Source of the DNA: a virus
Virus record (IMG/VR): IMGVR_UViG_3300033571_016909
Span: 1-35,614 of that record
Length of the DNA stretch: 35,614 nucleotides
Reading direction: 5' to 3' (one strand)
Under the pieces are notes generated by a model that searched no databases, had not been told where the DNA came from, and saw only the letters and a list, made by a program, of their open reading frames with translations. Both the position numbers and the translations under genes were made by a program. Below are positions 1-19,458 of the stretch, one piece after another (positions within the stretch are counted from its first letter, which is position 1; every line of letters begins with the position of its first letter).

Positions 1-426
1 CTTAAACAAGAAGGTATTGAAATAGATGATGCACAGAAGAAGAAGTTTGTAGAGCTTGTAAAAGCTAACTTCCCGGATCTTCGCAAGGCTATTAACGAGA
101 TTCAGAAGAATTGTATTAATGGATCGTTAGCTATTACTGCTATTAATGTAGATAATTCCTTACTTAACGCAATTTATACAGCTATTGAGCAGAAGGATGT
201 TATTTCACTTAGAAAGCACCTTATCGAGAATGAGAATTCGTTCTATGGTGATTATGATACACTAATGCGCGATTATCTTAACTATCTATATAATCAACCA
301 GTACAAGATCTTAAAAAGAAAGAGATGATCGCTGTTATTGCTGATCATTTATACAAGTCTGCATTCGTTTTAGACAAAGAAATTAACTGCTTTGCTTGTT
401 GGATTAGCCTCGAAAGAGTATCTTAG
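1..426 (+). CDS. 44: Clamp-loader small subunit gp44, C-terminal part (5' truncated by window edge)
   Basis: The reading frame is open from base 1 to a TAG at 424-426 and gives 141 residues with no start in the window. The residues LRKAINEIQKNCINGSL and the helical stretch after them match the C-terminal collar region of T4 gp44, where an FPDFRK/LRK segment precedes the oligomerisation helices. Gp44 is the AAA+ ATPase that, with gp62, loads the gp45 sliding clamp onto primer-template DNA. The AAA+ ATPase motifs would lie upstream of the window. The gene ends tail to tail with the next minus-strand gene and shares 4 bases with it. Identification rests on recall of the family, not on an alignment. 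Confidence 0.85.
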   Translation, partial: LKQEGIEIDDAQKKKFVELVKANFPDLRKAINEIQKNCINGSLAITAINVDNSLLNAIYTAIEQKDVISLRKHLIENENSFYGDYDTLMRDYLNYLYNQPVQDLKKKEMIAVIADHLYKSAFVLDKEINCFACWISLERVS

Positions 427-1004
427 GCTTTAGCTAGATCCTTGAGATACTCGTGGGTGTATGAAGTAACGGCAGGTGAAGGAGTCGCTTGAACTGAAGG
501 AAGTACTGTATTATCCTTAGCAAGCGATCTTTCAGTATCCATATAAGCTCCGGTACCTCTATCTGTCTTATTAGCTACATTATCCATCTTTTCTAGCTCC
601 TCAGGCTTAATATTTACCTTATTCTTGCGTACTACTTCATCAGGAATCGGAGGTAGGTTAGGGTAGATATCAAGCGGCTGACCCATCTCAGGTGAGATGT
701 TAATATAATTTGTATATCTACCACCGCCTGTATCAAGGGCTAGTGTGAGCTCAACATCGCTAGATGATGTTTGTGGATTCCCCGGATATCTAGGAGAAGT
801 AGTATCTTTGATACCCACAACTCTAACATTAAGACCTGTTTCGATCATTTGATCGATCATATCTTTAACGTTTTGCCCTAATTTTTTGTAACAGTCAAGA
901 GTCTTAAAATTATCGTTAAATTTAAAAACATCACCAACGAGGAATCCACCGCGTTGAAATCTACTAAGGTATGCCTCTACCAGTGTAAGATACTTTTTAG
1001 CCAT
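423..1004 (-). CDS. Conserved T4-like phage protein, probable virion component
   Basis: A 193-residue protein beginning MAKKYLTLVEAYLSRFQRGG. A longer reading from the ATG at 1025 is possible. I prefer 1004 because a perfect TATAAATA box ends 5 nt before it, the same spacing as at the other late genes, and because the 1025 codon lies inside the divergent promoter. It has no signal peptide or membrane segment. The C-terminal third is Pro/Thr/Ser-rich and looks flexible. I recall similar proteins (N-terminal ...GDVFKF..., middle GGGRY..., then KVNIKPE) as conserved hypotheticals in marine T4-like phages, but know no function. The late-type promoter argues for a structural or morphogenesis role. 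Confidence 0.7.
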   Translation of the reverse strand: MAKKYLTLVEAYLSRFQRGGFLVGDVFKFNDNFKTLDCYKKLGQNVKDMIDQMIETGLNVRVVGIKDTTSPRYPGNPQTSSSDVELTLALDTGGGRYTNYINISPEMGQPLDIYPNLPPIPDEVVRKNKVNIKPEELEKMDNVANKTDRGTGAYMDTERSLAKDNTVLPSVQATPSPAVTSYTHEYLKDLAKA

Positions 1005-1009
1005 ACTAT

Positions 1010-1017
1010 TATTTATA
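1010..1017 (-). promoter_or_regulatory. T4-type late promoter box TATAAATA
   Basis: Perfect TATAAATA on the minus strand, ending 5 nt (atagt) before the ATG at 1004. It decides the start of that gene. Confidence 0.8.
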
Positions 1018-1022
1018 CCGAA

Positions 1023-1030
1023 CATAAATA
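1023..1030 (+). promoter_or_regulatory. T4-type late promoter box CATAAATA
   Basis: CATAAATA ends 5 nt (attat) before the ATG at 1036. It is divergent from, and only 5 bp away from, the minus-strand box at 1010-1017. Confidence 0.8.
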
Positions 1031-1035
1031 ATTAT

Positions 1036-1305
1036 ATGGAATTTGATTTGTTAGTTGAAGAAATTCTTTTAGAAAAGTCTGCTAGATGCACCAAGGTAAC
1101 AGGCCAGCAATCATCTACTAGATCAGATAAAAAATACATGAGATGTGTAAAAACAAAGACTGGCTATAAGCGAGTGCATTATGGCGATCCTAATCTTAGG
1201 ATTAAAAAATCTAATCCAAAACGCCGCAAATCATTTAGAGCTCGACACAAATGCTCTACCGCAAAGCCGGGAACGGCTAGATATTTTTCATGTAAAAACT
1301 GGTAA
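1036..1305 (+). CDS. Small basic Cys-containing protein with N-terminal capsid-targeting-like motif
   Basis: An 89-residue, strongly basic protein. Residues 2-13 (EFDLLVEEILLE) form an acidic amphipathic segment ending in LLE, a match to the (I/L)xE consensus of the T4 gp21 prohead protease. The rest is rich in Lys/Arg with Cys at about residues 18, 37, 73 and 86, and ends RARHKCSTAKPG...RYFSCKNW. That tail recurs, as I recall, in marine phages and some large DNA viruses. It is the first gene of a late operon that runs into gp25 and gp6. I infer a packaged DNA-binding or head-internal protein whose N terminus is removed on maturation. Function is not established. Confidence 0.75.
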   Translation: MEFDLLVEEILLEKSARCTKVTGQQSSTRSDKKYMRCVKTKTGYKRVHYGDPNLRIKKSNPKRRKSFRARHKCSTAKPGTARYFSCKNW

Positions 1306-1306
1306 T

Positions 1307-1549
1307 ATGACACAAGTAGAACTTTTAGAAAATCTTAGAGACTGGTTTAAGCCTCACACAGATAAAAAAGGTAAAAAGTTTCGTGGTTGGATAAACTGCA
1401 AAACTGGAGGGCCTTGCGGGAGAGCTGATACTTCTAAGGGCTCATACCCTGCTTGTCGCCCTACTAAAGCGCAGTGTAAAAAAATAAAAGGAAAAATGTA
1501 TACTAAAAAAAGCTCAAAAAGAGTTTCATGGAAGGGAAAAAAAGACTAA
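1307..1549 (+). CDS. Small basic Cys-rich protein, DUF5872-like
   Basis: 80 residues. The start at 1307 is chosen because it follows the previous stop as TAATATG, the same junction used by the next two genes. A longer in-frame reading from 1181 would overlap the previous gene by 125 bases. It has about 23 Lys/Arg against 6 Asp/Glu. The segment GWINCKTGGPCGR...YPACRPTKAQCKK, with four regularly spaced Cys, and the ending SKRVSWKGKK resemble the DUF5872 domain known mostly from viruses, by recall. An early LLE (residues 6-8) could be a prohead-protease site. Probable metal- and/or nucleic-acid-binding virion protein; function unknown. Confidence 0.75.
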   Translation: MTQVELLENLRDWFKPHTDKKGKKFRGWINCKTGGPCGRADTSKGSYPACRPTKAQCKKIKGKMYTKKSSKRVSWKGKKD

Positions 1550-1550
1550 T

Positions 1551-1727
1551 ATGAACGAGTTTAATAATATGTATAAATTAATTTTAGAGAAATATACTAA
1601 AAGACGTAAGTCATCTCTAAGAAAGAAGTGCCAATCCAAAGCTAAGGCTAAATATGATGTATGGCCTAGTGCCTATGCGTCTGGATATGTACAAAAGTGT
1701 GTAAAGCGTAAAGGAAAGATAAAATAA
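1551..1727 (+). CDS. Very small basic protein with capsid-targeting-like N terminus
   Basis: 58 residues, too short for most gene-length cut-offs. Start follows the upstream stop as TAATATG and the gene ends with the same TAATATG into the next one, so it is embedded in a coupled series. Residues 3-13 (EFNNMYKLILE) form an amphipathic helix ending in ILE, matching (I/L)xE. After it come a basic stretch (KRRKSSLRKK) and a motif YDVWPSAYASGYVQKC, which I recall from other marine viruses including large eukaryotic ones. Its composition and position suggest a head-internal, DNA-binding protein. Function is not known. Confidence 0.7.
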   Translation: MNEFNNMYKLILEKYTKRRKSSLRKKCQSKAKAKYDVWPSAYASGYVQKCVKRKGKIK

Positions 1728-1728
1728 T

Positions 1729-1896
1729 ATGCCCTATATACGAAAAGGTAAATGCGTTTATAGAAGAGATACTGGTAAAAAGGTAGGCTGTTCTAATAGC
1801 GTGTCTAGAGCTAAAAAATACCTCAAGAAACTTTATATGGTAGAGAGCAACTTCAATAAAACCTTTAACCTAATAATCGAGCGTTATGGCAATTAA
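1729..1896 (+). CDS. Very small basic protein with C-terminal (I/L)xE motif
   Basis: 55 residues beginning MPYIRKGKCVYRRDTGKKVG. The first 35 residues are basic with two Cys. The last 15 (residues 41-55) read NFNKTFNLIIERYGN and contain an F-x-x-x-F-x-x-I-I-E pattern like the N-terminal motifs of the two related genes upstream, but here at the C terminus. It starts one base after the upstream stop and its last 11 bases overlap the start of gp25 (ATGGCAATTAA), so it is translationally coupled on both sides. Likely another packaged basic protein. The tag position is an inference worth testing. Confidence 0.65.
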   Translation: MPYIRKGKCVYRRDTGKKVGCSNSVSRAKKYLKKLYMVESNFNKTFNLIIERYGN

Positions 1897-2371
1897 ATTA
1901 AACGTAATTAAACCTACCACAGCGGTCGAAACTGCATTGCAGCAGGGGTATCTATATAAAGATATAGATTTTGATTTACAATACGGTTATAGTACTAATA
2001 AACAACTGTACTCTAATAGAGAAAAGAAAGACTTAGCAGCTTTATACGATGTCAATTCAGTTATAAACTCTTTAAAGAATATTCTCACCACATCACCAGG
2101 CGAAAAGCTATTAAATCCTGAATTTGGACTCGACTTGAGAGACTATTTATTTGAATCGGTAACGGAGACCAAGGGATACTTTATTGGTGAAGAAATATTT
2201 ACTGGCTTACCTCTTCAGGAGGAAAGAATAGAAATTAATTACATTGAAGTAATAGTTAATGCTGAAGAGCAGGAATATACTATTAACTTAGATATAGGCA
2301 TACCATCTCTAAATATACCTAGTATAACATTGAATGGTGTATTAAATAATGATGGATACGTCTTTGTATAA
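1886..2371 (+). CDS. 25: Baseplate wedge protein gp25 (gpW/gp25 family)
   Basis: 161 residues, compared with about 132 in T4. The central segment around residues 52-90 (YDVNSVINSLKNILTTSPGE, then LLNPEFGLDLRDYLFE) is the signature of the gpW/gp25 family. In T4, gp25 joins the gp6 ring of the baseplate wedge and helps nucleate the sheath. The N-terminal 45 residues are longer than in T4. It overlaps the preceding small gene by 11 bases. The gp6 start (TAATG) overlaps its stop by one base, the usual 25-6 adjacency of T4-like phages. Confidence 0.9.
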   Translation: MAIKLNVIKPTTAVETALQQGYLYKDIDFDLQYGYSTNKQLYSNREKKDLAALYDVNSVINSLKNILTTSPGEKLLNPEFGLDLRDYLFESVTETKGYFIGEEIFTGLPLQEERIEINYIEVIVNAEEQEYTINLDIGIPSLNIPSITLNGVLNNDGYVFV

Positions 2372-4182
2372 TGAATATTAAAAACTTTACAGAATATAGC
2401 CTACCTAGAGATGCATACACGACCTTTGATGCTACGACATTAAAGGATCTAATTATAGCTCGCTTAGGTGAGAGCGAAGTATTTAGAGATCAAGTATATG
2501 AAGGCTCTAATATTAACGCGTTTATAGATGTGGTAGCTTACATGTATCATGTGCTCTTATTCTATTTAAATACTACTTCCTCCGAATCTACATTTACTAC
2601 AGCATCCTTGTATGAAAACATGAACAAGATTGTTAGTAATATCGGATATAAGCCGGTAGGTAAGCAAACATCTCTAGCAGTAATGTCTTTATCAGGTAAC
2701 GCGTCTATGACAGCAGGCGTCTACACTCTACCAAGATTCTCTTCTATAAACGCCGGAGGACAAACATTTGTAATTACTAGAGATGTTAATTTTGAAAAGA
2801 CTACTACAGGTGCACCGGAAAAATTATTCGTGGATAACAGCTTTGCATATCAGGGAAGTATTACAGAATATCCTACCTATACAGCAACAGGCGAAACCTT
2901 TGAGGTGGTAACTATAGTAGATAATTCACCTATCAGCAATAGTACTACATTTGTTTCAGATAACTCCTTTTCGTTATTCGTATATGACACCGCAACACAG
3001 CTCTGGTCAGAGTGGCAAGAAACTGCTTCTCTATTTTTAGAAGATGGATCAGCAAAGAGATACGAAAAGAGACTTAACGAGAACGGTAATTACGAGTTTA
3101 AATTCGGTAACGATATTAACGGATTAAAGCTTAAAGTTAATGACCGTGTACAAATCTACTACGTAACATCTAACGGTACTAATGGCGTGGTTGGAGCAAA
3201 TTTAATGGCAGGAAATCAATTTTCCTTTTACAACTCTATCACATTTAATTCTATTGCTAGTAACATATACAATAGTTCTGTTACATTACTGCCAATATCG
3301 CAACTACCTAACTTGATAGCAAACAATCCAAATGCATCTTCCCCTATATCTGATGCAGAAACGGTAGATGATATAAGAAAAAATGCTCCTAAGCTATTTG
3401 CTTCCCAGAATAGACTGGTTACAGGAGACGATTATAGAGACTTTGTAGAAAGAAATTACAATATAGTTGTTAAGAGTGTTAGTGTTTTAGATAATACCCA
3501 GTATACGTCTAGATTCTTAAAATATTTCTACACTATAGGGTTGAATAAGCCTAACAACGATACGAGAGTTCTGTTCAATCAGGTTGCATTTTCAAATTCA
3601 ACCTCTTTTAACAATGTCTATTTGTTTTGCGTACCCAAAACAGCAACTATAATTAACGAAACACTTCCCAACTATTTAAATTCAGCTCAAAAGCAACTGA
3701 TTATAAACCAATGTAGTAATAAAAAAGATATAACACATAACGTTGTATGTGTGGATCCAATTTATAAAGCATTTGATATTGGACTACAACAGGTAGGTGA
3801 AGATTCTTGTATAGACTTAAGAGATAAAACAGCTTTAGTTATTAAAAAGTTCAATAACTCTAATATAAGTAACGAAAGAATTACAGATAGAGTTGTTAGT
3901 GCAATAAAGAATTATTTTGATAAAGTTCAATTAGGTCAGATTATAGATTTAGGTGAGCTTAGCAATAATATAAAGAGCTTAGATGGAGTCAAGGACATAG
4001 CAACCAGACGAACAGATAGCAACTTTACAGTACCAAAATTAAATATGGTTTTGTGGAATCCTATATATGAAGAAGATGACGTTGTATTTACTTCACAAAA
4101 TTATACTCTTGAGGCTTTTCAATACGCATTCTTCTACGAAATAAGCAAACTTAGACAGAAAATTATAGTAGAAAATGAGTGA
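2371..4182 (+). CDS. 6: Baseplate wedge protein gp6 (baseplate J-like)
   Basis: 603 residues against about 660 in T4. The segment near residues 325-360 (SDAETVDDIRKNAPKLFASQ followed by RLVTGDDYRDFV) is the hallmark of gp6 and baseplate-J proteins. The C-terminal part holds the expected alpha/beta core with LGQIIDLGELSNNIKSLDGV. In T4, gp6 dimers form the iris-like ring of the baseplate that changes size on sheath contraction. It starts on the gp25 stop codon and overlaps the next gene by 8 bases (ATGAGTGA), so it is part of the late operon from 1023. Confidence 0.9.
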   Translation: MNIKNFTEYSLPRDAYTTFDATTLKDLIIARLGESEVFRDQVYEGSNINAFIDVVAYMYHVLLFYLNTTSSESTFTTASLYENMNKIVSNIGYKPVGKQTSLAVMSLSGNASMTAGVYTLPRFSSINAGGQTFVITRDVNFEKTTTGAPEKLFVDNSFAYQGSITEYPTYTATGETFEVVTIVDNSPISNSTTFVSDNSFSLFVYDTATQLWSEWQETASLFLEDGSAKRYEKRLNENGNYEFKFGNDINGLKLKVNDRVQIYYVTSNGTNGVVGANLMAGNQFSFYNSITFNSIASNIYNSSVTLLPISQLPNLIANNPNASSPISDAETVDDIRKNAPKLFASQNRLVTGDDYRDFVERNYNIVVKSVSVLDNTQYTSRFLKYFYTIGLNKPNNDTRVLFNQVAFSNSTSFNNVYLFCVPKTATIINETLPNYLNSAQKQLIINQCSNKKDITHNVVCVDPIYKAFDIGLQQVGEDSCIDLRDKTALVIKKFNNSNISNERITDRVVSAIKNYFDKVQLGQIIDLGELSNNIKSLDGVKDIATRRTDSNFTVPKLNMVLWNPIYEEDDVVFTSQNYTLEAFQYAFFYEISKLRQKIIVENE

Positions 4183-6382
4183 TATTAACACAGTATACAG
4201 TTATTTTGATACCTACAACTATACAGGTACTCTTGCCGCTAGTAGTTACGCACTGCCCTTTACCCCTTTTAGCTTTAGACCTAGATTAAATCTTCTATCA
4301 ACCTCTACAGGTACGGGTATTATTCCGGTCTCACAGAACACACTCTCAAGAAAAAGGATAGTTTGGGACCTCGGTGACGGGACTACAGTTGAAGCGGTGA
4401 CAGCTACACATGCATATAAAGAGCCAGGTAGGTATAAAGTAACCTGTTATCTTTACGATCGTGATGGTGAGGGATACTATGATACCTTCTATCAACAAGT
4501 AAATGTGTATAACTACTTACAAGATACACTATCTCTATCAGCGTCTAACACTACAAATACTTTCTTAACAGCAGGTAAATATATAAGACCTATTCTAGTA
4601 ACGAGATCTACATCTTGGCAGTACTATGAAATTCCTTATACACCAGACGAGCAAAGCGATAATTTTTTCACTCCCCCGATAAAGAATAAGCCGGTTTCTG
4701 AGGAATCAATTACTACAAAAGTAGCTTCTCATAAATTTAATATTGACAAGCCTGTAAGTATTATCACATATGTCTCAGGAGCGAGTGCAGTAAATTATTT
4801 TGATAGCGGGCTTAGTACTACCCACTACGGTCATCTATATCCCTACTCATCTACCTTTATACAAAATGTAGGAGATAGTGGAAACACAGAGTTTTTAGAA
4901 GTCTCATCATTTACTACTACATCAACTCCTATTTATATAAAGCTAGTAGGTACGCAGATAGTAAGAACTACTAGTGGAGATGCAGATTCCTTTTTCTGTG
5001 GTACGACAGGATCAAGACTATTATATTATAAGGATGATTTTCCATCACTGGCAGCTAATGTGCTTCTAGGCATTGATGCTAGCGAATTAAAACCCTATTC
5101 AAATACCAATACTATAGGCTATAAGACTACAACAGCTAAAAATCGCAGCTACGCAAAATTATCTATAACTTCTAATGGTTTAGACAGTGAAGGAACCTTA
5201 CCTAACCTGTTTCCGATAGATAAAAATAAGTTTGCTGAAAGCAGAATAGGTATCGTTATTAAGGTTAAAGACTCGGAAAACTTTACAGTAAAAGATATAC
5301 CTCTAATAAAGTACCCTGATGATTTTGTAGAATTTAAGTTAACTAACGGCAGTACTCAGTACAGTTTCGATATTTTTTCAGATTTCGGTACTCTGTCTTC
5401 CCTGGATAAAGGTGGTTTTTGGAAGGGATACATTATACCACATACAAATGTACTCGCAGAGAATGTTTATCTATCAGCATCGGTCAACATTCAAGGATCG
5501 CCTGTAAAGGGAACATCTAACACCTTTAATATATACCCATCAGGTGGGTATTATAATATAGCTAAAAAAGGAGAGGATATTGATTTTAAAGAAATATTTA
5601 AAGAGATAGCAATACAACCTTTATTTTTAGATAAAACCGTTCTATTTAATGATTTTCTCGGTACAATATTTGGTGACATAGAATCTATACAAGATTCTAT
5701 AGGAAAAGTCACCTATGAAAAAATTAAGAACTTTGTAGATAATAACTCGGTGTTAGATTATAGTAATATAGATCAGCTTCTATCAATATTTAAAACCTTT
5801 GATTTAAACGATCCAAAATATAGCAGTAATAACTTCAACACGCCTAAAGAACTAAAAAGGTTAATTGACTTACTATCGATAAATCACTCACGGTTGTTCG
5901 GAACACAAAATAAATTTAAAGAAAACTTTAAGAGCTTCGGGTACTTAAACAATCCTCTATACGGAAAAAACCTAGGCGAGGAAGTGACTATTAGTCACAT
6001 TATCACGGCGGGTCAAGATCTAGTTGCTTTTGAAAAATTTAGTGGTGAGTACAAGTACTTAAACTCATACTTACCTCTATGTGCATCATATATTACTTTA
6101 TTATCGAATAATAGATACTATCTTTCAAGCTATAACAGTTCTTGGGGTTGGAATCTAGTAATTCCGCAAAGTGGTGGTGATGTCTTATCTACTTACTATC
6201 TATTTTACAAATACGATCCAGGTATAGACGGTACTATAGAAAATAGTATAATAAATTTTGAAGATTCTAATACAACTCTGAGTTTTAATAACTCGTCTTA
6301 TGAAGCTTGGTCACAAGAAAGCGGTATAATTTCTAATATAGTAGCTCAAAAGCTATATAGTAAGCTAAATTTGTTTGTGTGA
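4175..6382 (+). CDS. Large baseplate/tail structural protein with N-terminal PKD-like domain
   Basis: 735 residues. Residues about 60-108 form a PKD-type beta-sandwich: VWDLGDGTTVE, then THAYKEPGRYKVTCYLYD. The remainder is Tyr/Ser/Asn-rich beta structure typical of baseplate and tail proteins, with a helical section around residues 470-580 (FKEIFKEIAIQPLFLDKTVL...). It sits where gp7 lies in T4, immediately after gp6, but I do not recognise gp7 itself. It is coupled to gp6 by an 8-base overlap and is the last gene before the next late promoter. Probable structural protein of the baseplate periphery; exact role unknown. Confidence 0.7.
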   Translation: MSDINTVYSYFDTYNYTGTLAASSYALPFTPFSFRPRLNLLSTSTGTGIIPVSQNTLSRKRIVWDLGDGTTVEAVTATHAYKEPGRYKVTCYLYDRDGEGYYDTFYQQVNVYNYLQDTLSLSASNTTNTFLTAGKYIRPILVTRSTSWQYYEIPYTPDEQSDNFFTPPIKNKPVSEESITTKVASHKFNIDKPVSIITYVSGASAVNYFDSGLSTTHYGHLYPYSSTFIQNVGDSGNTEFLEVSSFTTTSTPIYIKLVGTQIVRTTSGDADSFFCGTTGSRLLYYKDDFPSLAANVLLGIDASELKPYSNTNTIGYKTTTAKNRSYAKLSITSNGLDSEGTLPNLFPIDKNKFAESRIGIVIKVKDSENFTVKDIPLIKYPDDFVEFKLTNGSTQYSFDIFSDFGTLSSLDKGGFWKGYIIPHTNVLAENVYLSASVNIQGSPVKGTSNTFNIYPSGGYYNIAKKGEDIDFKEIFKEIAIQPLFLDKTVLFNDFLGTIFGDIESIQDSIGKVTYEKIKNFVDNNSVLDYSNIDQLLSIFKTFDLNDPKYSSNNFNTPKELKRLIDLLSINHSRLFGTQNKFKENFKSFGYLNNPLYGKNLGEEVTISHIITAGQDLVAFEKFSGEYKYLNSYLPLCASYITLLSNNRYYLSSYNSSWGWNLVIPQSGGDVLSTYYLFYKYDPGIDGTIENSIINFEDSNTTLSFNNSSYEAWSQESGIISNIVAQKLYSKLNLFV

Positions 6383-6393
6383 TAGTTTCAGCA

Positions 6394-6401
6394 AATAAAT
6401 A
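6394..6401 (+). promoter_or_regulatory. T4-type late promoter box AATAAATA
   Basis: AATAAATA in the 25-bp gap after the 735-residue protein. It ends 6 nt (tatagg) before the ATG at 6408. The AGG touching the ATG is too close to act as a Shine-Dalgarno sequence. Confidence 0.75.
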
Positions 6402-6407
6402 TATAGG

Positions 6408-9338
6408 ATGAGTAGTGAGATCGTCTTTACTAATGCTATAATAAAAGACTCGGTAATAAGTAATACAAATACCTCTATTACTAAGGATAATACTGCTCCT
6501 TTTAGTTTTTTAGAGTTTATAACGAATACCGGTGTTGATTATTCACCTGAACAGTATAATAAATTTTATCTTTATTATCTTGAAGAGTGGGCTAACTATA
6601 AAAACTCTATAAGTAGCGATAGATCGGTTGAGTTTATAGACTTGTATGTTGATTTTCTTAAGGAGCTAACAATCACATACTCCACACAACAAGAGCTTAA
6701 ATTCCTATCAACTTTAGATTTTAATAATCCTGTTGACCTCGACGTTGCTATTCCTTTTTATACTGAAAAAATAAGACAGGTTATTTTATTTTATAAAGAT
6801 AAGAGAGATACTGCTAAATTTGTAATTGAGAGAAATAAAATAAAGGGAACTGCACTATCTGTTGAAAAAGCGCTTTTTGAGAAAATCTACGACTATGCTT
6901 TCTCGTCGCAAGACACTCCAACCTACGCTTCTCTTAACTACTCTCTATCATCTTTACAAACTTATCTCAAAATAGACATACAGGAGTTTGTTGATGTATA
7001 TTCCGAATATTTTGATCTTCCTAAAGGTACCGATCCCTTCACCACTGTAAATAGAGAAGATATAGATACAGACTTATTTTTCGAAGATCCTTTTAATGTC
7101 TTTAGAAGTAATGTTTTCTTAACCGAAATACCACTTACAGTTAATACCATATTAAATTATAGTGACGCTTGCGACCCCACAAATCCACTAGCGCTAATTA
7201 GAAATGACTGCGAGAATAAGACAGGCTTTACAGACGCCGAGCGAGTTTCTCTAAAGATTAACTACCTTAAAAAATACGCGGGTGTTGATATGCATTATAT
7301 CGATACTACTTCTTCACCCCCTGTAACAGGAATTCTGTTTACGGCTAATGATCCAACTAGTAATTTACAAAACCTGCAAAATATATACACGCCGACCGCA
7401 GAGTCAAATCAAATAAAGCTTCTTAGAGATATAGGTCTATTCTTTAAGCCTGATAAGACTGGTATATTTCAATTAAACGCTAACAACTATACGTATAGCA
7501 TCGATCGCAGAAGACTTGAGCCTAATAAGGTCTATATCTTCCCTAACCCAAGTGTTTATGGTAATGTAACGATTAACATGAAGGATGATTATCCTTTAGT
7601 ATTTACATACGATAATAGACCTGATATTAAGAACGTATCTTCTTCTTTTGCTTCTGGTGATCCAGACGTTAAAAATACTGATCAGACCTTTTCTCCTTAC
7701 TATTCTAGAGAGCAAACCATACAAAGAACGGAAGCTAAAGACGCTTCTTATAGCTTAAATTTTAATGACCTCTTTAACAAAGGGTATATTACCAAATACC
7801 AGACAGATATTTACGGTAATGAGTATGCTCTGTTTAAGGATAGCTTCGGACAATCTTTTAAAGAAATAGAGCAAATAGAAACGCAGCCTATTTTAAACCT
7901 GTTATTAAACGGTCACGCTTTCTATGATTTTGTGGAAGGTTATGACTTTGATTATTCTACAGCATCTAGAGACGGAACTACAGTACGTTCGGGGCTATCT
8001 ACATTAACAGTAAATTATCCTTTCCCACCAAGCTCCCCATCTCTTTCTGCTAGCTTTTTACTTAGTGGAGCTCCATATCACTTATACTTTAGAGAGTTTT
8101 TACCTTATCAAGAGTTAAATTATTCAGGAGGATTTTCTACTACAACAGCTGATAGTAAAAACTATGTTGGAATTTTTAGAGACGCAGGCGGTTTTACCTT
8201 TATTAATGGTTCAAGGCTACCTGATCCACTCTCAACAGACAATCCTAGCTACCCTGGTTCAGATAATAATATTTACTATTACAGTCTCTTAGTAGATGCT
8301 GTCGAAACTAAGCCCAACACAGGTGTTATTATAACCGAAACTACAAATCAATCTGTTTTAACTGAATCTCTTCTCGAGCTAAACGCTGACCCGGTAGTAA
8401 ACTACGATTGTGGGTACTTTACCGATACTGTGGAGTTAGTAAACGATTATAATTACGGCAGCCAATACGAATATTACAACAATCTCTTACCTAACAGTGA
8501 AACTGTAGTTAGCTCTATTACTGGTAGTGATGTTTACAGAGCTATGACTTATAAGAACGAGCTCGAAGGTAGAATATTTGTTAAGAATGCAACAAATGCA
8601 CGATCACAGCCTATATCTAGTGCTCTTGATGTAATATTCAGTAAGTACTCACAAGCTGTACAGAACGAGGTATACAACACTCCTAGAAATATTGAAGTTT
8701 TCTATGATAATATATGTGTTGAGACAGACAACTACATAATTATCGATAAAATAATGTATGAAGACGGTGAGTTTGTATTACCATCAACTAAAAACAATGT
8801 ATTTTCACGTACCGGTAAAGATATTAGTACATTCTCAAATAAATTCTACAACGAAAAGAATAATACCTTAACCTTCTGCACCATCCAGCAAGTTAATTCT
8901 CTTTCAGCAAGGAATAGTAAGGCTCTATACCCTAATATATATCAATACGATTTAAACACCGGTATATCTGAGGTTATCTTTCCTAAGAGCACAGATATAG
9001 CTACACTATCTAGTGGTTTTAATCTCAGCGCTCTATTTACTAATAACTTCAACATTAATATTGTTAATGTTGAGAAACCCGCTTTAACATATAATTCTCT
9101 CAACGATGTCTTTAAGATAACATACATTGGAGTAGATAATAATAACTATTTCCATGTCTTTGATACAGAATTCGATGTATACGAGAACGATGTTAGAATA
9201 TTAAATAATAAATTCTATAGATCGGATAAGAAATACTTAACTACCAACTTTACTAGTACTAATACGGTATTCACTTATATAAATAGCATATCTGGTACAT
9301 ATACCATAACCGCAAGCGCAGGAGTACTTTCCTTATGA
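6408..9338 (+). CDS. Large baseplate/tail structural protein (976 aa)
   Basis: 976 residues. The N-terminal 170 residues are helical and charged (SPEQYNKFYLYYLEEWANYK, then FIDLYVDFLKELTITYSTQQ), like proteins that dock on the wedge. The rest is Asn/Ser/Tyr-rich beta-type sequence without a domain I can name. Its size and position after gp6 would fit a gp7-like wedge protein (T4 gp7 is 1032 residues), but I see no diagnostic motif. It has its own late box and overlaps the next gene by 4 bases (ATGA). A perfect TATAAATA near its 3' end (9278-9285) is not followed by a start codon at the usual distance. Confidence 0.7.
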   Translation: MSSEIVFTNAIIKDSVISNTNTSITKDNTAPFSFLEFITNTGVDYSPEQYNKFYLYYLEEWANYKNSISSDRSVEFIDLYVDFLKELTITYSTQQELKFLSTLDFNNPVDLDVAIPFYTEKIRQVILFYKDKRDTAKFVIERNKIKGTALSVEKALFEKIYDYAFSSQDTPTYASLNYSLSSLQTYLKIDIQEFVDVYSEYFDLPKGTDPFTTVNREDIDTDLFFEDPFNVFRSNVFLTEIPLTVNTILNYSDACDPTNPLALIRNDCENKTGFTDAERVSLKINYLKKYAGVDMHYIDTTSSPPVTGILFTANDPTSNLQNLQNIYTPTAESNQIKLLRDIGLFFKPDKTGIFQLNANNYTYSIDRRRLEPNKVYIFPNPSVYGNVTINMKDDYPLVFTYDNRPDIKNVSSSFASGDPDVKNTDQTFSPYYSREQTIQRTEAKDASYSLNFNDLFNKGYITKYQTDIYGNEYALFKDSFGQSFKEIEQIETQPILNLLLNGHAFYDFVEGYDFDYSTASRDGTTVRSGLSTLTVNYPFPPSSPSLSASFLLSGAPYHLYFREFLPYQELNYSGGFSTTTADSKNYVGIFRDAGGFTFINGSRLPDPLSTDNPSYPGSDNNIYYYSLLVDAVETKPNTGVIITETTNQSVLTESLLELNADPVVNYDCGYFTDTVELVNDYNYGSQYEYYNNLLPNSETVVSSITGSDVYRAMTYKNELEGRIFVKNATNARSQPISSALDVIFSKYSQAVQNEVYNTPRNIEVFYDNICVETDNYIIIDKIMYEDGEFVLPSTKNNVFSRTGKDISTFSNKFYNEKNNTLTFCTIQQVNSLSARNSKALYPNIYQYDLNTGISEVIFPKSTDIATLSSGFNLSALFTNNFNINIVNVEKPALTYNSLNDVFKITYIGVDNNNYFHVFDTEFDVYENDVRILNNKFYRSDKKYLTTNFTSTNTVFTYINSISGTYTITASAGVLSL

Positions 9339-10033
9339 ATAGTGTAACACTTAACTACGATTTAAATAATTCCTTCAACAATATAACTATGCAGGTTAAA
9401 CCTGTTATACTTAAAGGAGCTACCACTCTTAATATATCACTTACCGGTGTCTTAGAAAACGACTTTAAAGTTGATCAGGTGGTTATAGACTGGGGAGATA
9501 ACACAAAACAGGAAGTTTACAAGAGGGAGATTTTTTACAACTATAGAACACAATCTATTTTTAATGAAGTACTATACGGTAAATTAAACGGTAGTATATT
9601 AGGAGTATACAGTCATGACTACGTTAACGAATATAATACCTACGAAGCTGACTATGTTATTAGTATAATAATACAGAAGAATAATGGTAAGTTTATATAC
9701 ATTAAGCAGCCTGTACGTAGCTTTTGGGGATCGTTCTATGATAGCTTAGAAAGACTAACAATACTAAACACGCAGATACTGCCTCTTACGTCTAATAACA
9801 GCTTTGTTAATTTCGAAGGTGTAGATGGAACGACTTTTGCGGCTAATTTAAAGGATACAGGAGTAGCTTTATTAAGCGGTGGAGTACAAGATGTAACGCC
9901 AATTGATATATTTGGATATCTCGATCTAGGACTTCTTGCAACATCTGATAGTATTGATATTGAGATTACTCTTTCAGATAATACAACCTATACCGTAGAT
10001 TGTGTGTTAGGGTACAGTCAATTTACTACGTAG
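9335..10033 (+). CDS. Tail/baseplate protein with PKD-like beta-sandwich
   Basis: 232 residues, coupled to the preceding gene by an ATGA overlap. Residues about 45-95 have a PKD-like pattern: VDQVVIDWGDNTKQEVY followed by a conserved His-Asp-Tyr strand (YSHDYVNEY), comparable with the domain in the 735-residue protein. No signal peptide or transmembrane segment. Probably an accessory baseplate or fibre-attachment protein. The gene meets the inverted fibre cassette head-on, only 12 bases from the next stop codon, with no convincing terminator between. Confidence 0.6.
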   Translation: MNSVTLNYDLNNSFNNITMQVKPVILKGATTLNISLTGVLENDFKVDQVVIDWGDNTKQEVYKREIFYNYRTQSIFNEVLYGKLNGSILGVYSHDYVNEYNTYEADYVISIIIQKNNGKFIYIKQPVRSFWGSFYDSLERLTILNTQILPLTSNNSFVNFEGVDGTTFAANLKDTGVALLSGGVQDVTPIDIFGYLDLGLLATSDSIDIEITLSDNTTYTVDCVLGYSQFTT

Positions 10034-10045
10034 AGTATACGGCTA

Positions 10046-10723
10046 TTAAAGTTCTAAATTTGAATTTAATCCTAAAGTAAAGGTAGCTGTAGCAATATTT
10101 GTAAACAAACTAGGAGGTATAGGATTACTAATTAAAGTATATATAGCATCATTTACACCACCCCGATCAGGTGTATTAGCGATTGTAAATGCTCTGGTTG
10201 TAGTACTATTAATATCGCTTCCTGTATAGAAAGACTTTTCCACATCCCACGTAGCTAAAACCGCCGTCTTGGTGTTATTAAGTAGCTGAACTTGATCAAA
10301 GTAAAAAGTCATACCTGCACTTCCCTGATTTATAATTTCATATATTTCTGTATCGGTTGTTGTTGGTATAAAATCTTTGATTTTAGACCCCGAAACTCTA
10401 AAAAGTATTCTATAAAGTAAGTTAGGCTTAGGACCGCTTACCCGCACCCGCCAGCAATCTCCACTAAACTGAATAACACTAAATGTAAGTGTGTCGGTAA
10501 AGGGCGTATACCCAGCTCTTTGAAAGAGTCCTTTTAGGTCTGTAACTCCGGAATTAAATGCTGTAGTGTATGATATCTGGTCACTTGCTACATTAGATTT
10601 TTCGTATAAATTAGATATATCAACACCGTTTGAATCTACATACCCGACATCAGCTCGTTTAGCTGTAACTCTAGCTCTAAATATACTATCTAGATCAGTT
10701 GTACTTACCTTAAACCCAGCCAT
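10046..10723 (-). CDS. Tail-fibre-associated protein, second gene of inverted cassette
   Basis: 225 residues starting MAGFKVSTTDLDSIFRARVT, an N-terminal style I know from phage fibre/adhesin proteins that share an attachment module. The remainder is predicted beta structure with a Cys-Trp strand (SGDCWRVRVSG) and a C-terminal sandwich. It follows the S74 protein by 4 bases and shares its promoter. It may be a fibre tip, adaptor or accessory adhesin that works with the S74 protein. Function is inferred from context only. Confidence 0.55.
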   Translation of the reverse strand: MAGFKVSTTDLDSIFRARVTAKRADVGYVDSNGVDISNLYEKSNVASDQISYTTAFNSGVTDLKGLFQRAGYTPFTDTLTFSVIQFSGDCWRVRVSGPKPNLLYRILFRVSGSKIKDFIPTTTDTEIYEIINQGSAGMTFYFDQVQLLNNTKTAVLATWDVEKSFYTGSDINSTTTRAFTIANTPDRGGVNDAIYTLISNPIPPSLFTNIATATFTLGLNSNLEL

Positions 10724-10727
10724 AATA

Positions 10728-12197
10728 TTATTTTAACTTACTCTCTAGATCTGATACTTTTTGTGTTAGTTCTTTAACTGCTTCTATAAGAACCGCTGTA
10801 AGCTTACCGTAATCAATACCTTCAGGAGCGTCATCTTCGTCTTTCTTTACTAGCTCAGGAAGAATCTCATTAACTTCTTCAGCTATAAGACCGATATCAG
10901 ACTTACCAGTTTCTTTCCACTCGTAAGCAACCCCTTGTAATTGATTAATTGTTTCTAAAGAATTAGTTAAATTATTGATATTAGTCTTAAAACGCTTGGA
11001 TGAGCTAGATGTAAAAGAAGGAGCGGTTACTGCACCTCTAGCGTTTAACGTACCGGTTCTACAGTTAATAAATACTGCATTTTCACCTTGTGGAATAGTT
11101 TGACCTGTGATATTAGGACTAAAGCCGATCCCAAACCAAGATTGTATTTGTACATTGGCTAGTGTATTAGAAGCTCCATCTTGATTCTGACCTCTAATAG
11201 AACCTCCACCTGAAGCGTTTAGATTAATTCCGCTAGATTGCGCCACGCTAATTCCTCCTGCTACATCTAACCTATTAGAAGGAGATGATGTACCGATACC
11301 AACATTACCACTAGTATTAATATAACATCTAGTTGATGCAGCAGATGATTGATATATGTAAAAATCTTTTGTACCGTTTCCGTTCGAGTCTTGACCTACA
11401 TTCCAGTCATCAAGAACTATACTCGATCTTTTTGTTGCACCTAGAGTATTTGGTGCAATAACTAATCCGGGGTCTCCAGCAGTGTTATTACCAGCTATGG
11501 TAACTGGCACGTTAAAATTAAAGGTTGAAGTATCACTACGCTGAAATATGCTATAAATTGCTCTATTATTACCGGTAGAATTAGTACCGTAAAATACAAA
11601 GTTGTTATCAGATTGCATGGTTAGCCTAGGGAAAGTTCCGCTAGCATCAGTAAATCTTATAGAGTTGTTATTTTGACTTAAGGTGATAGTACCTTTAACG
11701 TCTAGAGCAGATGATGGTACTGCAACACCTATTCCAACTATACCCGTAGAGACTGTAAAATTATTGGTTGAGGCTAGAGCATCTCTAAAATAAACAGCAT
11801 TAGCATCAATATACGCCATACTTGGACTTCCTGAGTGTGCACTTCCGTAAAGCTCAATATTAGCTCCGTCTGTTCCGTCTCCTCCCGCTAAAACAATGTT
11901 AGATGTATTTGAGTTAGAAGAAATAACTCTGCTAGTATTAATTTTTATTCCTGCAGAACTAATATCTAAAGGACAGGTTGGGGAGGTTGTGCCAATACCT
12001 ACATTACTCGTGGTCCATTTTAAAGGGCAACTAGACAGTGCGGTAAAAGGAATAGCATTATTAAAGAAAAAATTCTTTATAGGTGTTTTATATGTATAGT
12101 ACGCTGCACCTACCTGCTGCACTAAAGGTACTGTCTCATTACCCGTGACACTAGCTGCAGCAAGATCAGTAATAGATTGAATAGGAATACTTGGCAT
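10728..12197 (-). CDS. Tail spike/fibre with C-terminal S74 intramolecular chaperone
   Basis: 489 residues. The middle holds repeats of the NVGIGTTSP...LDI type, common in receptor-binding fibres. The C-terminal 91 residues are a Peptidase_S74 domain: SSKRFKTNINNL, then GVAYEWKETGKSDIGLIAEE, then IDYGKLTAVLIEAVKELTQK. The family cuts itself just before a Ser with a Lys five residues later; here these are about Ser399 and Lys404. The chaperone trimerises the fibre and is then released. The start is fixed by a TATAAATA box 6 nt upstream. The gene is inverted relative to the flanking baseplate and adhesin genes, which suggests a module that can be swapped. Confidence 0.85.
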   Translation of the reverse strand: MPSIPIQSITDLAAASVTGNETVPLVQQVGAAYYTYKTPIKNFFFNNAIPFTALSSCPLKWTTSNVGIGTTSPTCPLDISSAGIKINTSRVISSNSNTSNIVLAGGDGTDGANIELYGSAHSGSPSMAYIDANAVYFRDALASTNNFTVSTGIVGIGVAVPSSALDVKGTITLSQNNNSIRFTDASGTFPRLTMQSDNNFVFYGTNSTGNNRAIYSIFQRSDTSTFNFNVPVTIAGNNTAGDPGLVIAPNTLGATKRSSIVLDDWNVGQDSNGNGTKDFYIYQSSAASTRCYINTSGNVGIGTSSPSNRLDVAGGISVAQSSGINLNASGGGSIRGQNQDGASNTLANVQIQSWFGIGFSPNITGQTIPQGENAVFINCRTGTLNARGAVTAPSFTSSSSKRFKTNINNLTNSLETINQLQGVAYEWKETGKSDIGLIAEEVNEILPELVKKDEDDAPEGIDYGKLTAVLIEAVKELTQKVSDLESKLK

Positions 12198-12203
12198 ATT
12201 ATA

Positions 12204-12211
12204 TATTTATA
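12204..12211 (-). promoter_or_regulatory. T4-type late promoter box TATAAATA
   Basis: Perfect TATAAATA ending 6 nt (tataat) before the ATG at 12197. It drives the inverted S74 fibre cassette and diverges from the box at 12247-12254. Confidence 0.8.
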
Positions 12212-12246
12212 CCTATGTATTTTTTTACTAGTAACTTATATCCGCA

Positions 12247-12254
12247 AATAAATA
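12247..12254 (+). promoter_or_regulatory. T4-type late promoter box AATAAATA
   Basis: AATAAATA ending 7 nt before the GTG at 12262. The sequence GCAAATAAATATAT is shared with the box before 6408. Confidence 0.75.
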
Positions 12255-12261
12255 TATTATA

Positions 12262-15200
12262 GTGACTAATTTAGAAGTTTATAGTGTATCTGCAATTAAT
12301 ACTCTAAGTGCGAGTTATTATGATTCCTTTTATAAGTTTAGACAGTATAGAGAAGGGTTCGAGCAAGGTTATTCTTTAAATAAAATCTACGCTTTAAATG
12401 ATACAGTTGATAGCACTATAAACAATTATTCAACACAATACCTTACCTCTAAAAAGAGTATTAAGGATATGTTTGTATCTGATGCCAAATATGAGCCTAT
12501 TCGAACAATAACAACGCAGCTTATATTCAACACTCTCTACGACGCATCTAATCCGAAGTATCTTTATATATACAAGGATACCGTCAATAAGGATCCAAGA
12601 GTTACTACTTGCAGAGCCCTACTATCAACTTATACAGGTTATAAAAATAACACTTACTTTGAGTTAGAAATTGTTGATGATTTGTTCCTTAGAGTTAAAC
12701 ACAACAACGGTAAGGCTGATTATTACATGAACTATTTGCCAAATGCAGATAGTGTATTTTTCTTAAACTATTATTCTGATGTTACTACTTTAAGTAGTGA
12801 GCGTAATGATATGTTTAGATATATTCTCGATAAAGATGGATATCTGCAACTATTTAAAAATACAGTATACGGTAATAAGGTGTTAACTTTATCAGCTTCT
12901 TACGACGGGTTAGGAGGAGATATATTAACATTTGTAACTGTTACAAGCTCCTCTCTAGTAACATCTCCTAGTAATGTAATGCAGATTAATTATAGCATTA
13001 AAGAGTTAGAGCCAAAAGAATACTCTTCTTGGGTTAGTTATGATGTAAATAAGCAAAATGATCTAAGTTTAAACGAAAATAAAAGTATATTTGATAGAGC
13101 AGATCAGTATTTATTACACGCGAATGTAAATGAGTCTCTCAACGATCTTAATTTAAATTATGTAACTCTAAACAATATAAGATCAGAGAAGAACTACATA
13201 AAAAGAGGTACAAATATAATTGATAGTAACCCATCTGTACCTGGGGTTGAGTTTAGAGAGTATATGTCGTTACAGACAGGAAACAGTCAAGAGCTAGGCG
13301 ACGATAATATATCTCTTACATATGTCTGGTTCGATAAAGATATAAAGGTAAAAAATGGCTCAGACACTATATTTACAGCTCCATCTTCACTATACCCTTA
13401 CAGTAAATTAAACATAAATGATACTAAGTTTGTAGAGAACGGTAGCTTAGCCGGGTTGACTCCTAAGCTAGCTGATAACATCTACCAACTAAGAAAAAAC
13501 AATACAGTCTATAATAACGGAAGATATCTCGTTACCTGGCTATCTGGCGGTACTAATACGCCAGGTATATGGGTAGATAGATATTATTACCCTGATTACA
13601 TTACAAAGCGTGCAGCTCTGAGCACTTTACCAGTATACGCACCATCTTATAGTGATCCTATTGATAGTCTTATATTTACTGACCCGCGTAGTGTAGCGGC
13701 CGCGGCGTTTTTTGATAAGCGAAGTGATTTGTGTTTAGAGCCGAATAATTCATACAAGTACTCACGCGTTGGGGTTGATGATATAATGGAATATGTTAGC
13801 TCTACTATGCCTATTGCAAGTGGCTTTGATAACTACTATACCACTAGTAATGTATCTGAAGTATATAATTCTAAAGAGATATTTTACGACGGATTAAAAT
13901 ATAACAAGTTTAATGTTGCAAGATCTATAAATGACAGCAATGCTTTTACTGTCTCGTTTGACCTTTATGTTGATCCAGAAGGTGATTATGGCTATCAAAT
14001 ATTTGGTAATATTACTAATAAAGGATTCGGTGTTGTAAGTGATACTAGAATCACCCCGTTTATTAACTCTTATAGTGGAAAGACTCTTAAAGTATATAAT
14101 ACTGATTTGGTTTTATTGCACACAACAGTATTTGATACAGATATACTAGATATTGCGAAGGGTGAAGGTCTAGATGATTATTATGTTGTATGTAACGGTG
14201 GACGCATTTATAAAGTAAATGCTTTGGGAGTTAAAATGAAGATGGAGTCCGTACCGGAGATTGTTGGTTATATAAACTACTTCTATGATGGGAGCTACCT
14301 ATACTTTGTTAAGGCTTCTAACACTAATGATGTTATAAAGGTTGACAAAAACACTTTAGGGGTAGTATCCACGCCGACTTCTGTTAGGTTTAAAAACACC
14401 TATGAGAAGAATCCAGGACTATATGATGTGAAAAACGGCATTGTGGTATTTGATGATGTTATTTATAGACTACCATCATACGAGGTAAAGTATTACTCAC
14501 CAGAAGTAGTATATTATGTAATAGGAGGACAAGATCTAATAAGACACGATATAAAGATCGACGATATCACCTATGTTATGCATAGTAATACTAGAATTAT
14601 CGATTTTGTGGTTGATGATAGTTCTATCTATGTTCTTCATGATACTAGTAAGTTATCTATATACTCACATTCTCTTGAATTAATTTTTTCGGATAACTTT
14701 TCAACTACTATAACTAACTTAAAGGGATTTGTAAGTATAGATCTTATAAAACAATATGTAAGTACGTTCGCTATCAATAAAACAAATAAAGATATAGTAA
14801 TAACTTACCTCGATAATACAGATAGTATTAACTTATTTACAGCCTCTTCATTTAATTTTATCAATACACAGCTTAAGGGATATCTAACAGATCAAAATGA
14901 CAATTCTCGTTTTAAAACCGGTTATATAGCAACAAACTATAGCTATTTAAATCAATCATATAGACCTAAGAGTCTTAATTTTAATCTTACTCTTACTAAC
15001 TACCTCTCAACCGAAGATATACTACAAAAAAATATATCATTCGACTACACAACCTTAGATAGAGGTTATCATACATTCTCATATAGATTTGATCCTATAC
15101 AAGGTAATATAACGTTGTTTGTAGATGGAATTCAGCACGAGAACCTAACAGTTCAACCAGGTAAATACGGAATTCAAGATATACTCAACGACGATTTTTA

Positions 15201-15603
15201 TGCTGGTACAGCAGGGTTTTACAATAATACCGATCTAGCTACCTACTTAAATCAACCAGGCTATTACTATTTAAACAATACTAGATTGAAGAATGTTTTT
15301 CTCTATGATAGAGCGTTACGGGATGATGAGATACTAGCTCTTAATGTGTTCGACACGCCAATTAACGACCTTGTACTATCTTTACCAGCGGGTCAAAGAA
15401 ATAATATTGAAGAGATAGAGAGATACTTTAAGTTCCGCACTAAAGATAGCTCTTCGAAGAAGGTTAATATATATGTTAAAAATACAGGTATAATTAACTC
15501 GGATATGCAGAATAATATTAAGAACCTAATATTACAGGAATCATCCTCTATACTACCTCTCGGTGTAAATATAAATGATATACAATTCCTAGACTTTAAA
15601 TGA
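12262..15603 (+). CDS. Giant tail adhesin with C-terminal LamG-like domain
   Basis: 1113 residues from a GTG start set by the late box 7 nt upstream. Long beta-rich body. Residues about 580-850 contain strand repeats suggestive of a propeller (for example YVVCNGGRIYKVNALG, FYDGSYLYFVKASNTNDVIK, VDDSSIYVLHD). Residues about 890-1025 look like a concanavalin/LamG fold: GYHTFSYRFDPIQGNITLFV with DG following, then NTRLKNVFLYDRALRDDEIL, the usual end strand of LamG-3 domains. Such domains bind sugars, so a host-surface adhesin is likely. Overlaps the next gene by 4 bases (ATGA). Confidence 0.65.
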   Translation: MTNLEVYSVSAINTLSASYYDSFYKFRQYREGFEQGYSLNKIYALNDTVDSTINNYSTQYLTSKKSIKDMFVSDAKYEPIRTITTQLIFNTLYDASNPKYLYIYKDTVNKDPRVTTCRALLSTYTGYKNNTYFELEIVDDLFLRVKHNNGKADYYMNYLPNADSVFFLNYYSDVTTLSSERNDMFRYILDKDGYLQLFKNTVYGNKVLTLSASYDGLGGDILTFVTVTSSSLVTSPSNVMQINYSIKELEPKEYSSWVSYDVNKQNDLSLNENKSIFDRADQYLLHANVNESLNDLNLNYVTLNNIRSEKNYIKRGTNIIDSNPSVPGVEFREYMSLQTGNSQELGDDNISLTYVWFDKDIKVKNGSDTIFTAPSSLYPYSKLNINDTKFVENGSLAGLTPKLADNIYQLRKNNTVYNNGRYLVTWLSGGTNTPGIWVDRYYYPDYITKRAALSTLPVYAPSYSDPIDSLIFTDPRSVAAAAFFDKRSDLCLEPNNSYKYSRVGVDDIMEYVSSTMPIASGFDNYYTTSNVSEVYNSKEIFYDGLKYNKFNVARSINDSNAFTVSFDLYVDPEGDYGYQIFGNITNKGFGVVSDTRITPFINSYSGKTLKVYNTDLVLLHTTVFDTDILDIAKGEGLDDYYVVCNGGRIYKVNALGVKMKMESVPEIVGYINYFYDGSYLYFVKASNTNDVIKVDKNTLGVVSTPTSVRFKNTYEKNPGLYDVKNGIVVFDDVIYRLPSYEVKYYSPEVVYYVIGGQDLIRHDIKIDDITYVMHSNTRIIDFVVDDSSIYVLHDTSKLSIYSHSLELIFSDNFSTTITNLKGFVSIDLIKQYVSTFAINKTNKDIVITYLDNTDSINLFTASSFNFINTQLKGYLTDQNDNSRFKTGYIATNYSYLNQSYRPKSLNFNLTLTNYLSTEDILQKNISFDYTTLDRGYHTFSYRFDPIQGNITLFVDGIQHENLTVQPGKYGIQDILNDDFYAGTAGFYNNTDLATYLNQPGYYYLNNTRLKNVFLYDRALRDDEILALNVFDTPINDLVLSLPAGQRNNIEEIERYFKFRTKDSSSKKVNIYVKNTGIINSDMQNNIKNLILQESSSILPLGVNINDIQFLDFK

Positions 15604-17630: not shown

Positions 17631-17638
17631 TATAAATA
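17631..17638 (+). promoter_or_regulatory. T4-type late promoter box TATAAATA
   Basis: Perfect TATAAATA starting at the base after the upstream stop codon and ending 6 nt (tataca) before the ATG at 17645. Confidence 0.85.
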
Positions 17639-17644
17639 TATACA

Positions 17645-18379
17645 ATGGCAGGAACAGCAGCAACAAACTTAGCAAGCGTAAACATAAGTGATACTTATTA
17701 CGGTGTGTTACATGCAGGTGGTCAAAACCTTCCACCTACAGGTCAAGCTCAGATATATGATGGTTACGGAACATTTGCTGCAATAAGAGTAGGAGCAAAC
17801 TGCAATGGTGTAACTATATGCGGTCCTCTTTCTTGTGGATCGGTTTCAGCTAGTAGCTTATCAGTAACTGCAAAACTATCTGCTAGTACACAGTTTGACA
17901 TTTTTAATTTACTAAACGTACTACACCCTGTAGGTTCCGTAATCTTTACTTTCGATAGTGGCAATCCTGGTCTTAGACCAGGATGGTCTGGTACGGGTTG
18001 GTCACAGATAAGCCAAGGAAGATATTTAGGAGGAGTTGGAAGCTCTACCGATACAAATGGAGTATCGAATACATTTATTGCTGGAAATAACTCTGGTAGA
18101 TTTACACAGGATATATCAGTACCCGATCACTATCACGGTACAGGAGCCTTTACCGGAGCTAATAACGATGACTTTGTAGTTATTAATGGTGGTTGGGATG
18201 ATGGTAGGGGTTGGACTAGAGGTCGCTGGATTCCAGGCGAATCTCAAGCCAATAGAACTTTAAATGGAAACAAACAACTTTACGGTGCAATAACTTCATA
18301 CCCAGTAGCAAAATCTTCATACTCTATAGACATTGAACCTCCTGCCTGCGCTCTATATGTATGGCAACGAATCTCATAA
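17645..18379 (+). CDS. Tail fibre/baseplate protein with collar-type C-terminal domain
   Basis: 244 residues. From about residue 94 it follows the short-fibre/gp10-type collar pattern: LHPVGSVIFTFDSGNPG, PGWSGTGWSQISQGRYLGG, then SVPDHYHGTG and a C-terminal PPACALYVWQRIS that matches the PPY...YMWKR ending of the family. The N-terminal 90 residues are a short attachment segment. In T4 this fold occurs in gp10, gp11 and gp12, and binds cell-surface receptors or links fibres to the baseplate. It has its own late promoter. A perfect 10-bp inverted repeat lies inside the coding sequence at 17964-17984. Confidence 0.75.
   Translation: MAGTAATNLASVNISDTYYGVLHAGGQNLPPTGQAQIYDGYGTFAAIRVGANCNGVTICGPLSCGSVSASSLSVTAKLSASTQFDIFNLLNVLHPVGSVIFTFDSGNPGLRPGWSGTGWSQISQGRYLGGVGSSTDTNGVSNTFIAGNNSGRFTQDISVPDHYHGTGAFTGANNDDFVVINGGWDDGRGWTRGRWIPGESQANRTLNGNKQLYGAITSYPVAKSSYSIDIEPPACALYVWQRIS
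17964..17984 (+). repeat. Perfect 10-bp inverted repeat inside collar-protein gene
   Basis: ATCCTGGTCT and AGACCAGGAT flank a single T. As RNA it can fold into an 8-bp stem with a 5-nt loop. It is GC-richer than its surroundings, not followed by a T run, and encodes NPGLRPGW. Confidence 0.5.
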
Positions 18380-18382
18380 ATA
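18375..18382 (+). promoter_or_regulatory. T4-type late promoter box CATAAATA
   Basis: CATAAATA ending 7 nt (aaaatat) before the ATG at 18390. It overlaps the stop codon of the upstream gene. Confidence 0.75.
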
Positions 18383-18389
18383 AAAATAT

Positions 18390-19457: not shown

Positions 19458-19458
19458 A

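Follow-up and report, generated by a model that had tools for sequence, protein, structure and literature searches.

The DNA analysed here (the window, 35,614 bases) is a whole IMG/VR record and represents a fragment of a T4-like phage, in which gp25, gp6, tail-fibre, primase and other replication genes were identified. Four small genes lie in series in its baseplate region, outside the head module, flanked by a minus-strand gene and gp25 (Table 1), and they raise the question of whether the short Phe-led segments on several of their products could carry these basic proteins into the phage head. The preliminary description of this DNA had proposed such a role for the proteins beginning at 1036, 1551 and 1729, and its open reading frames and quoted segments are exact, the 1729 protein ending in ...NFNKTFNLIIE-RYGN; it left out the fourth gene, 1307-1549 (MTQVELLE-NLRDWF; hyphens in sequences mark the position of the putative cut). 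An overlapping open reading frame at 1181-1549 was rejected: it arises artefactually from an ATG further upstream, and conservation points to 1307 as the start. The bodies had been called rich in Lys, Arg and Cys, and computed values agree: net charges are +22, +19, +16 and +10 (+22 for the 76-residue body of the 1036 protein after the predicted cut), pI is 10.2-11.0, Lys plus Arg make up 31-38 % of residues and each of the four proteins has 2-4 Cys. Elsewhere in the window, a 906-residue protein (22730-25450, plus strand), possibly a fibre-like or surface protein, has a C-terminal array of repeats of about 20 residues of the type SSVISPNFYGLNDISINDGVFR and no PHROG match.

Table 1 Features of the window and of the four-gene cluster
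Feature	Position	Strand	Description
Window	1..35614		Whole IMG/VR record, 35,614 bases (35.6-kb); T4-like phage fragment
Neighbour gene	423..1025	-	200-aa protein, divergent neighbour of 1036
Late promoter core	1010..1016	-	ATAAATA, divergent, for minus-strand gene 423-1025
Late promoter core	1024..1030	+	ATAAATA, T4-type, 12 nt ahead of 1036 start codon
1036 gene	1036..1305	+	89-aa basic protein; N-terminal tag MEFDLLVEEILLE (1036-1074), then K; predicted cut before Lys14
1307 gene	1307..1549	+	80-aa basic Cys-rich protein, LRDWF...GWINC...CGR...YPACRPT; possible minimal tag MTQVELLE (1307-1330)
1551 gene	1551..1727	+	58-aa basic protein, PSAYASG body; tag MNEFNNMYKLILE (1551-1589), then K; predicted cut before Lys14
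1729 gene	1729..1896	+	55-aa basic protein; body MPYIRKGKCVY...KKLYMVE (1729-1845), then C-terminal Phe-containing helix SNFNKTFNLIIERYGN (1846-1893)
Tagged acidic protein gene	27425..27859	+	Tag MSKFENRFFKVLNE-Q..., acidic body (charge -9); late promoter core at -12

A segment of this kind is N-terminal and ends in [IL]xE in the 1036 and 1551 proteins and in their relatives, and lies away from the N terminus in the 1729 protein. At least 592 relatives of the 1036 protein were found in IMG/VR, and in the 80 inspected by reading the body is nearly invariant and the N-terminal segments are highly diverse, most of them being Phe-led and amphipathic with [ILV]xE immediately ahead of the body. The association was measured by locating [ILVM]xE upstream of the body in non-redundant proteins, with each upstream segment shuffled as the null. 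For the 1036 type, 33 of 42 proteins have the site no more than 8 residues from the body, versus 8.8±2.5 after shuffling (maximum 17 in 500 rounds); for the 1551 type it falls within 12 residues in 34 of 62 proteins (15.1±3.2 shuffled), and for the 1307 type within 16 residues in 16 of 20 proteins (7.6±2.1 shuffled). At the distances tested, the motif is absent from about one-fifth of 1036-type and nearly half of 1551-type junctions, and at some junctions P1 is Asp instead of Glu (the EED-AEYR type, seen in 8 of 19 members of this subtype), a change that in T4 stops processing and leaves targeting intact (PMC9026906). In a hand-picked list of 45 tags, for which P3 formed part of the selection, P3, P4, P7 and P11 are mainly hydrophobic, P11 being most often Phe, and P5, P9 and P12 are seldom so. 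The 1307 protein may also be tagged, as its relatives begin MITFQEYILE-NLRDWF and MKTFEEFFTE-NLRDWF; its own short segment is ambiguous, since a DUF5872 protein that has no tag begins in a similar way. The tags first noted in this cluster thus exceed what composition-preserving shuffles produce, and the proposed search of relatives, now carried out, recovered the same tag on varied cargo bodies.

A regular expression for the tag was also run genome-wide and matched 4.1 % of N termini in the related record G005 (background 1.2-1.6 %) and 2.3 % in G014 (background 1.8 %); it was dropped as evidence for any single protein because the pattern is too permissive. Ten other tagged proteins were compared with Pfam and PHROGs and almost nothing matched. 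The acidic protein of the window listed in Table 1 is a candidate prohead core or head protein, and its homologues in G001, G005 and G014 bear other tags. Tag-like N termini were also seen on two large proteins of other records, L325 14964-16655 (MINFRQYFNLLIE-GG) and L328 10791-11885 (MITFKNFIIVQE-GG), neither of which has a Pfam match; the second contains SVKFDGLN, which recalls the KxDG motif of nucleotidyltransferases and ligases, and both are possible packaged enzymes.

Cutting at these sites would call for a gp21-type protease. Neither gp21 nor gp23 was found within the 35.6-kb window, because the window is a fragment; among 22 related records, mostly fragments themselves, the gp21 protease family occurs in 11 and gp23 in 11. 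One gp21-encoding record among them, G001, aligns co-linearly with parts of the window, the DNA being 72-83 % identical. At the cluster locus it has the 1036 protein (99 % identical to that of the window) and the 1729 protein, and 1307 and 1551 were not detectable there, so these two genes come and go. L020 and L049 carry gp21, gp22, gp23 and a 1036 homologue in that order, with a 1551 homologue just past the last on the opposite strand and, in L020, a 1307-type protein there as well. With cut positions assigned from T4, gp23 of the relatives has LNE-A, LSE-A, INE-A or LNE-S near the T4 gp23 position and gp22 has FVDIIKE-A or FVDVIKE-A.

The start of the body was compared with the presence of gp21 in 15 named phages. 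In all six that have gp21, the body stands behind an extension or within a fusion, and in 8 of the 9 that lack it the protein is untagged and begins at or near the body (Fisher p=0.0014; site test p=0.011), a count that is partly a judgement because CRP-2 was placed with the latter despite about 18 residues ahead of its conserved part. The exception is Roseobacter phage CRP-6, without gp21, where the 1036-type body is fused N-terminally to an XkdF-type prohead protease (PF14550; L305 1935-2624) just before the capsid gene. Where it can be read, the predicted cut is in exact register with a natural N terminus: tagged junctions read LTE-AEYQGKKVTLN (phage C48C1) and LLTE-AKYKGRTVKLN (L159), and free N termini read M-AKYQGRTVKLN (Kolga) and M-AKYKGRTVKLN (HTVC111P). 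Scaffold and capsid genes flank the homologue in HTVC041P, and in CRP-738 and HTVC111P it is found near the terminase gene.

The core of T4 late promoters is ATAAATA, and copies precede both the 1036 gene and, divergently, the minus-strand neighbour, the true start of which is probably ATG 1004. By automatic calling, the core lies 12-14 nt ahead of the ATG in 8 window genes, versus 0.07 expected, and at -16 to -11 it precedes 21 genes in G001 (0.19 expected), 28 in G005 (0.23) and 36 in G014 (0.32). Only this placement before start codons is enriched, as the window holds 24 copies overall versus 29.9 expected; examples are found at 1024-1030, 6395-6401, 12248-12254, 17632-17638, 21515-21521, 25504-25510 and 27413-27419. 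The core precedes the 1036 gene and 17 of 37 distinct relatives, and it was found at 10 of 23 tagged N termini versus 96 of 750 other genes (p=0.0004, an optimistic value given the relatedness of the genomes and the partial use of the motif in choosing start codons). Judged from the promoter sequence, the 1036 gene would be expressed late. Since the core stands just 12-14 nt ahead of starts in the window, G001, G005 and G014, transcripts would begin at or beside the ATG, and the late mRNAs of this phage group are predicted to be leaderless.

The bodies are also modular. They are fused to one another in L144, L146 and L152, stand behind a long domain having its own N-terminal tag in L017 and L022, and stand behind a homologue of the minus-strand neighbour in L240 and L243 (neighbour versus the L243 fusion protein, 36 % identity, E 2e-31); homologues of this neighbour are joined to a 1551-type body through the tag-like NIYDEILQE-K. 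Cyanophage cytidylyltransferases of the T4-GC190 cluster (cluster number as given for P-RSM4) start with an exact T4-type tag, MKKFNAFLIE-A or MKKFSAFLTE-A, and this cluster was detected in purified S-SM1 virions (PMC3037559). In phage Melnitz the homologue starts MKKFSEIIE-A and has a C-terminal 1036-type body. This fusion, together with the virion-detected T4-GC190, comes nearest to experimental evidence, the virion detection being limited to the T4-GC190 homologue family. A second cluster, T4-GC119, annotated as 'structural protein' in S-P4, was dropped as proof, as it is called hypothetical in the text of PMC3037559.

Taken together, we consider the cluster probably to encode head-internal cargo of a T4-like phage, with proteins that would be tagged, cut by a gp21-type protease and retained in the capsid as bodies. 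The proteins would be made late, the short amphipathic segment (N-terminal in 1036, 1551 and possibly 1307) would bind the prohead core, the protease would cut after [ILV]xE, and the Lys/Arg-rich, Cys-containing mature body would stay inside the capsid, most likely alongside the packaged DNA, and could be ejected together with it. The sequences strongly suggest targeting and cleavage; from charge and the T4 analogy we infer that the bodies may associate with DNA and be ejected with it, and may have a role in host take-over or as 'chromatin'. The head-cargo reading first offered for this locus is accordingly supported in part: the set of small basic proteins with T4-type tags stands, backed by gp21 in the phage group, the late promoter and the adjacency to gp23 in relatives, and the view of the C-terminal tag as a new signal is not supported.

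That view concerned the 1729 protein. Its three nearest relatives read IVK-Q or IVN-Q where the window protein has IIE-R, and a cut there was therefore rejected as unconserved and is unlikely to matter, whereas the site ahead of the helix is retained (MVE-S in the window; VTE-S, IKE-Y and VHE-V elsewhere). L219, L226 and L229 have the 1729 body, then a tag, then a 1551 body, and the C-terminal segment of the 1729 protein looks like the linker tag of the fused next domain in these relatives. Possibly the helix acts as a C-terminal tag that can be removed. In T4, gp21 trims a C-terminal propeptide of Alt and the same is proposed for gp21 itself (PMC5694885, PMC9026906), so the 1729 helix would be a variant of known C-terminal processing, not the first of its kind.

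It is improbable that the segments are ordinary amphipathic helices, with [ILV]xE arising from a Leu/Glu-rich composition, on nucleic-acid-binding proteins that act unpackaged in the infected cell. Chance alone does give the loose tag pattern at 1-2 % of N termini, with scarcely any enrichment in G014, and untagged basic bodies do exist in phages lacking gp21, but shuffling that preserves composition fails to reproduce the site at the body boundary, tag presence tracks gp21, the predicted cuts are in exact register with natural N termini, late promoters are present, and bodies are fused to virion or head-protease proteins. T4 gp22 is mostly cut up and lost during maturation, and the cluster products might similarly be prohead core or scaffold parts and not retained cargo, which we regard as quite unlikely; gp22 of the relatives also begins with a tag-like IKE-A and mutants of the T4 internal proteins affect head assembly (PMC9026906), yet in the cluster proteins the body is the conserved part and has few internal [ILV]xE sites, and bodies occur free in phages without the gp21 protease. 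That the products are tail or baseplate accessory proteins, as their place directly before gp25 and gp6 in the window and likewise in G001 might indicate, is very improbable given a tag of head type, the homologue adjoining gp23 in L020 and L049, and the neighbouring scaffold, capsid or terminase genes in HTVC041P, CRP-738 and HTVC111P.

The bodies can be compared with known families. By profile comparison, the 1036 body probably belongs to the Tlr6F/DUF5754 (PF19058) superfamily through an intermediate: the window protein scores 13.1 bits against the Pfam model (curated cut-off 27.4) and 17 of 28 relatives match it weakly, and an elemovirus homologue that scores 44 bits, above the cut-off, aligns to the 1036 family profile at E 2e-10. 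The 1551 body resembles the N-terminal part of DUF5872 (PF19197; hhalign 98.9 %) and 1307 perhaps, weakly, the C-terminal part; neither directly reaches the Pfam cut-off, and as they are linked solely through L198, L209 and L201, this is treated as similarity and not as membership. A 1551-type homologue in L230 has PSAYA split by about 290 residues that start CVPESSSKALTRDGW and end TGNSGYVQKC, and the insertion looks like an intein within a tiny protein. Predicted structures of the 1036 protein (pLDDT 70) and the 1551 protein (pLDDT 88) gave no usable match in the PDB (best E 0.4, and a single match at E 8, respectively), and thus no match to a DNA-binding fold. We know of no function for DUF5872. 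Almost every Polinton-like virus encodes Tlr6F, the name used for DUF5754 in PMC12220804, as do many giant viruses, several virophages and some phages, and the protein has no known function (PMC4642659); members of both DUF5754 and DUF5872 are encoded by one haptophyte virus (PMC12085832). No paper connecting either family with capsid targeting was found in the literature searched, which included few subscription papers.

The capsid-targeting tag of T4 is well known, and its natural cargo outside the coliphages is, to our knowledge, little charted. Here the tag marks families of no known function that span phages, virophages (Tlr6F) and giant viruses, and its occurrence on Tlr6F-type bodies therefore gives a first clue to their site of action, the capsid interior. 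We tentatively propose, at somewhat less than even likelihood, that Tlr6F/DUF5754 and DUF5872 proteins are in general capsid-internal and genome-associated, and that this comes to light in T4-like phages, where a removable capsid-targeting tag is attached to these bodies, singly or as strings of cargo beads cut by the protease. Should the tagged forms be confirmed in heads, cultured marine phages would offer a test of where Tlr6F-type proteins reside, and a new group would supply natural tags and cargo bodies for study.

The closest known counterparts are the T4 internal proteins IPI, IPII and IPIII (PMC9026906), which like the cluster proteins are small and basic, with a short N-terminal Phe- or Tyr-led segment ending in [IL]xE and a gp21-type protease to cut it. 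IPII and IPIII start MKTYQEFIAE-A and IPI starts MKTFKEF, to which the tag of L063, MKTFKEFYLEE, is a near match. As far as seen the body sequences are unrelated, and cluster-type tags are often 3 residues longer; unlike the T4 proteins, cluster-type bodies also occur in multi-domain fusions, and the 1729 helix is C-terminal. T4 Alt (PMC5694885), from which gp21 removes N- and C-terminal propeptides, is a precedent for the C-terminal propeptide proposed in 1729, although Alt is a large ADP-ribosyltransferase and the 1729 protein is small. The Tlr6F/DUF5754 family as known has no capsid-targeting annotation, unlike the tagged 1036 protein, and DUF5872 is one protein with both parts, which in the window would correspond to the separate genes 1551 and, perhaps, 1307. 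The polyvalent proteins of phages (PMC5512222) are likewise multi-domain, inferred to be packaged and possibly processed, and a term search of that paper met none of the present small basic bodies; cluster-type cutting, unlike theirs, would be by a prohead protease at [ILV]xE.
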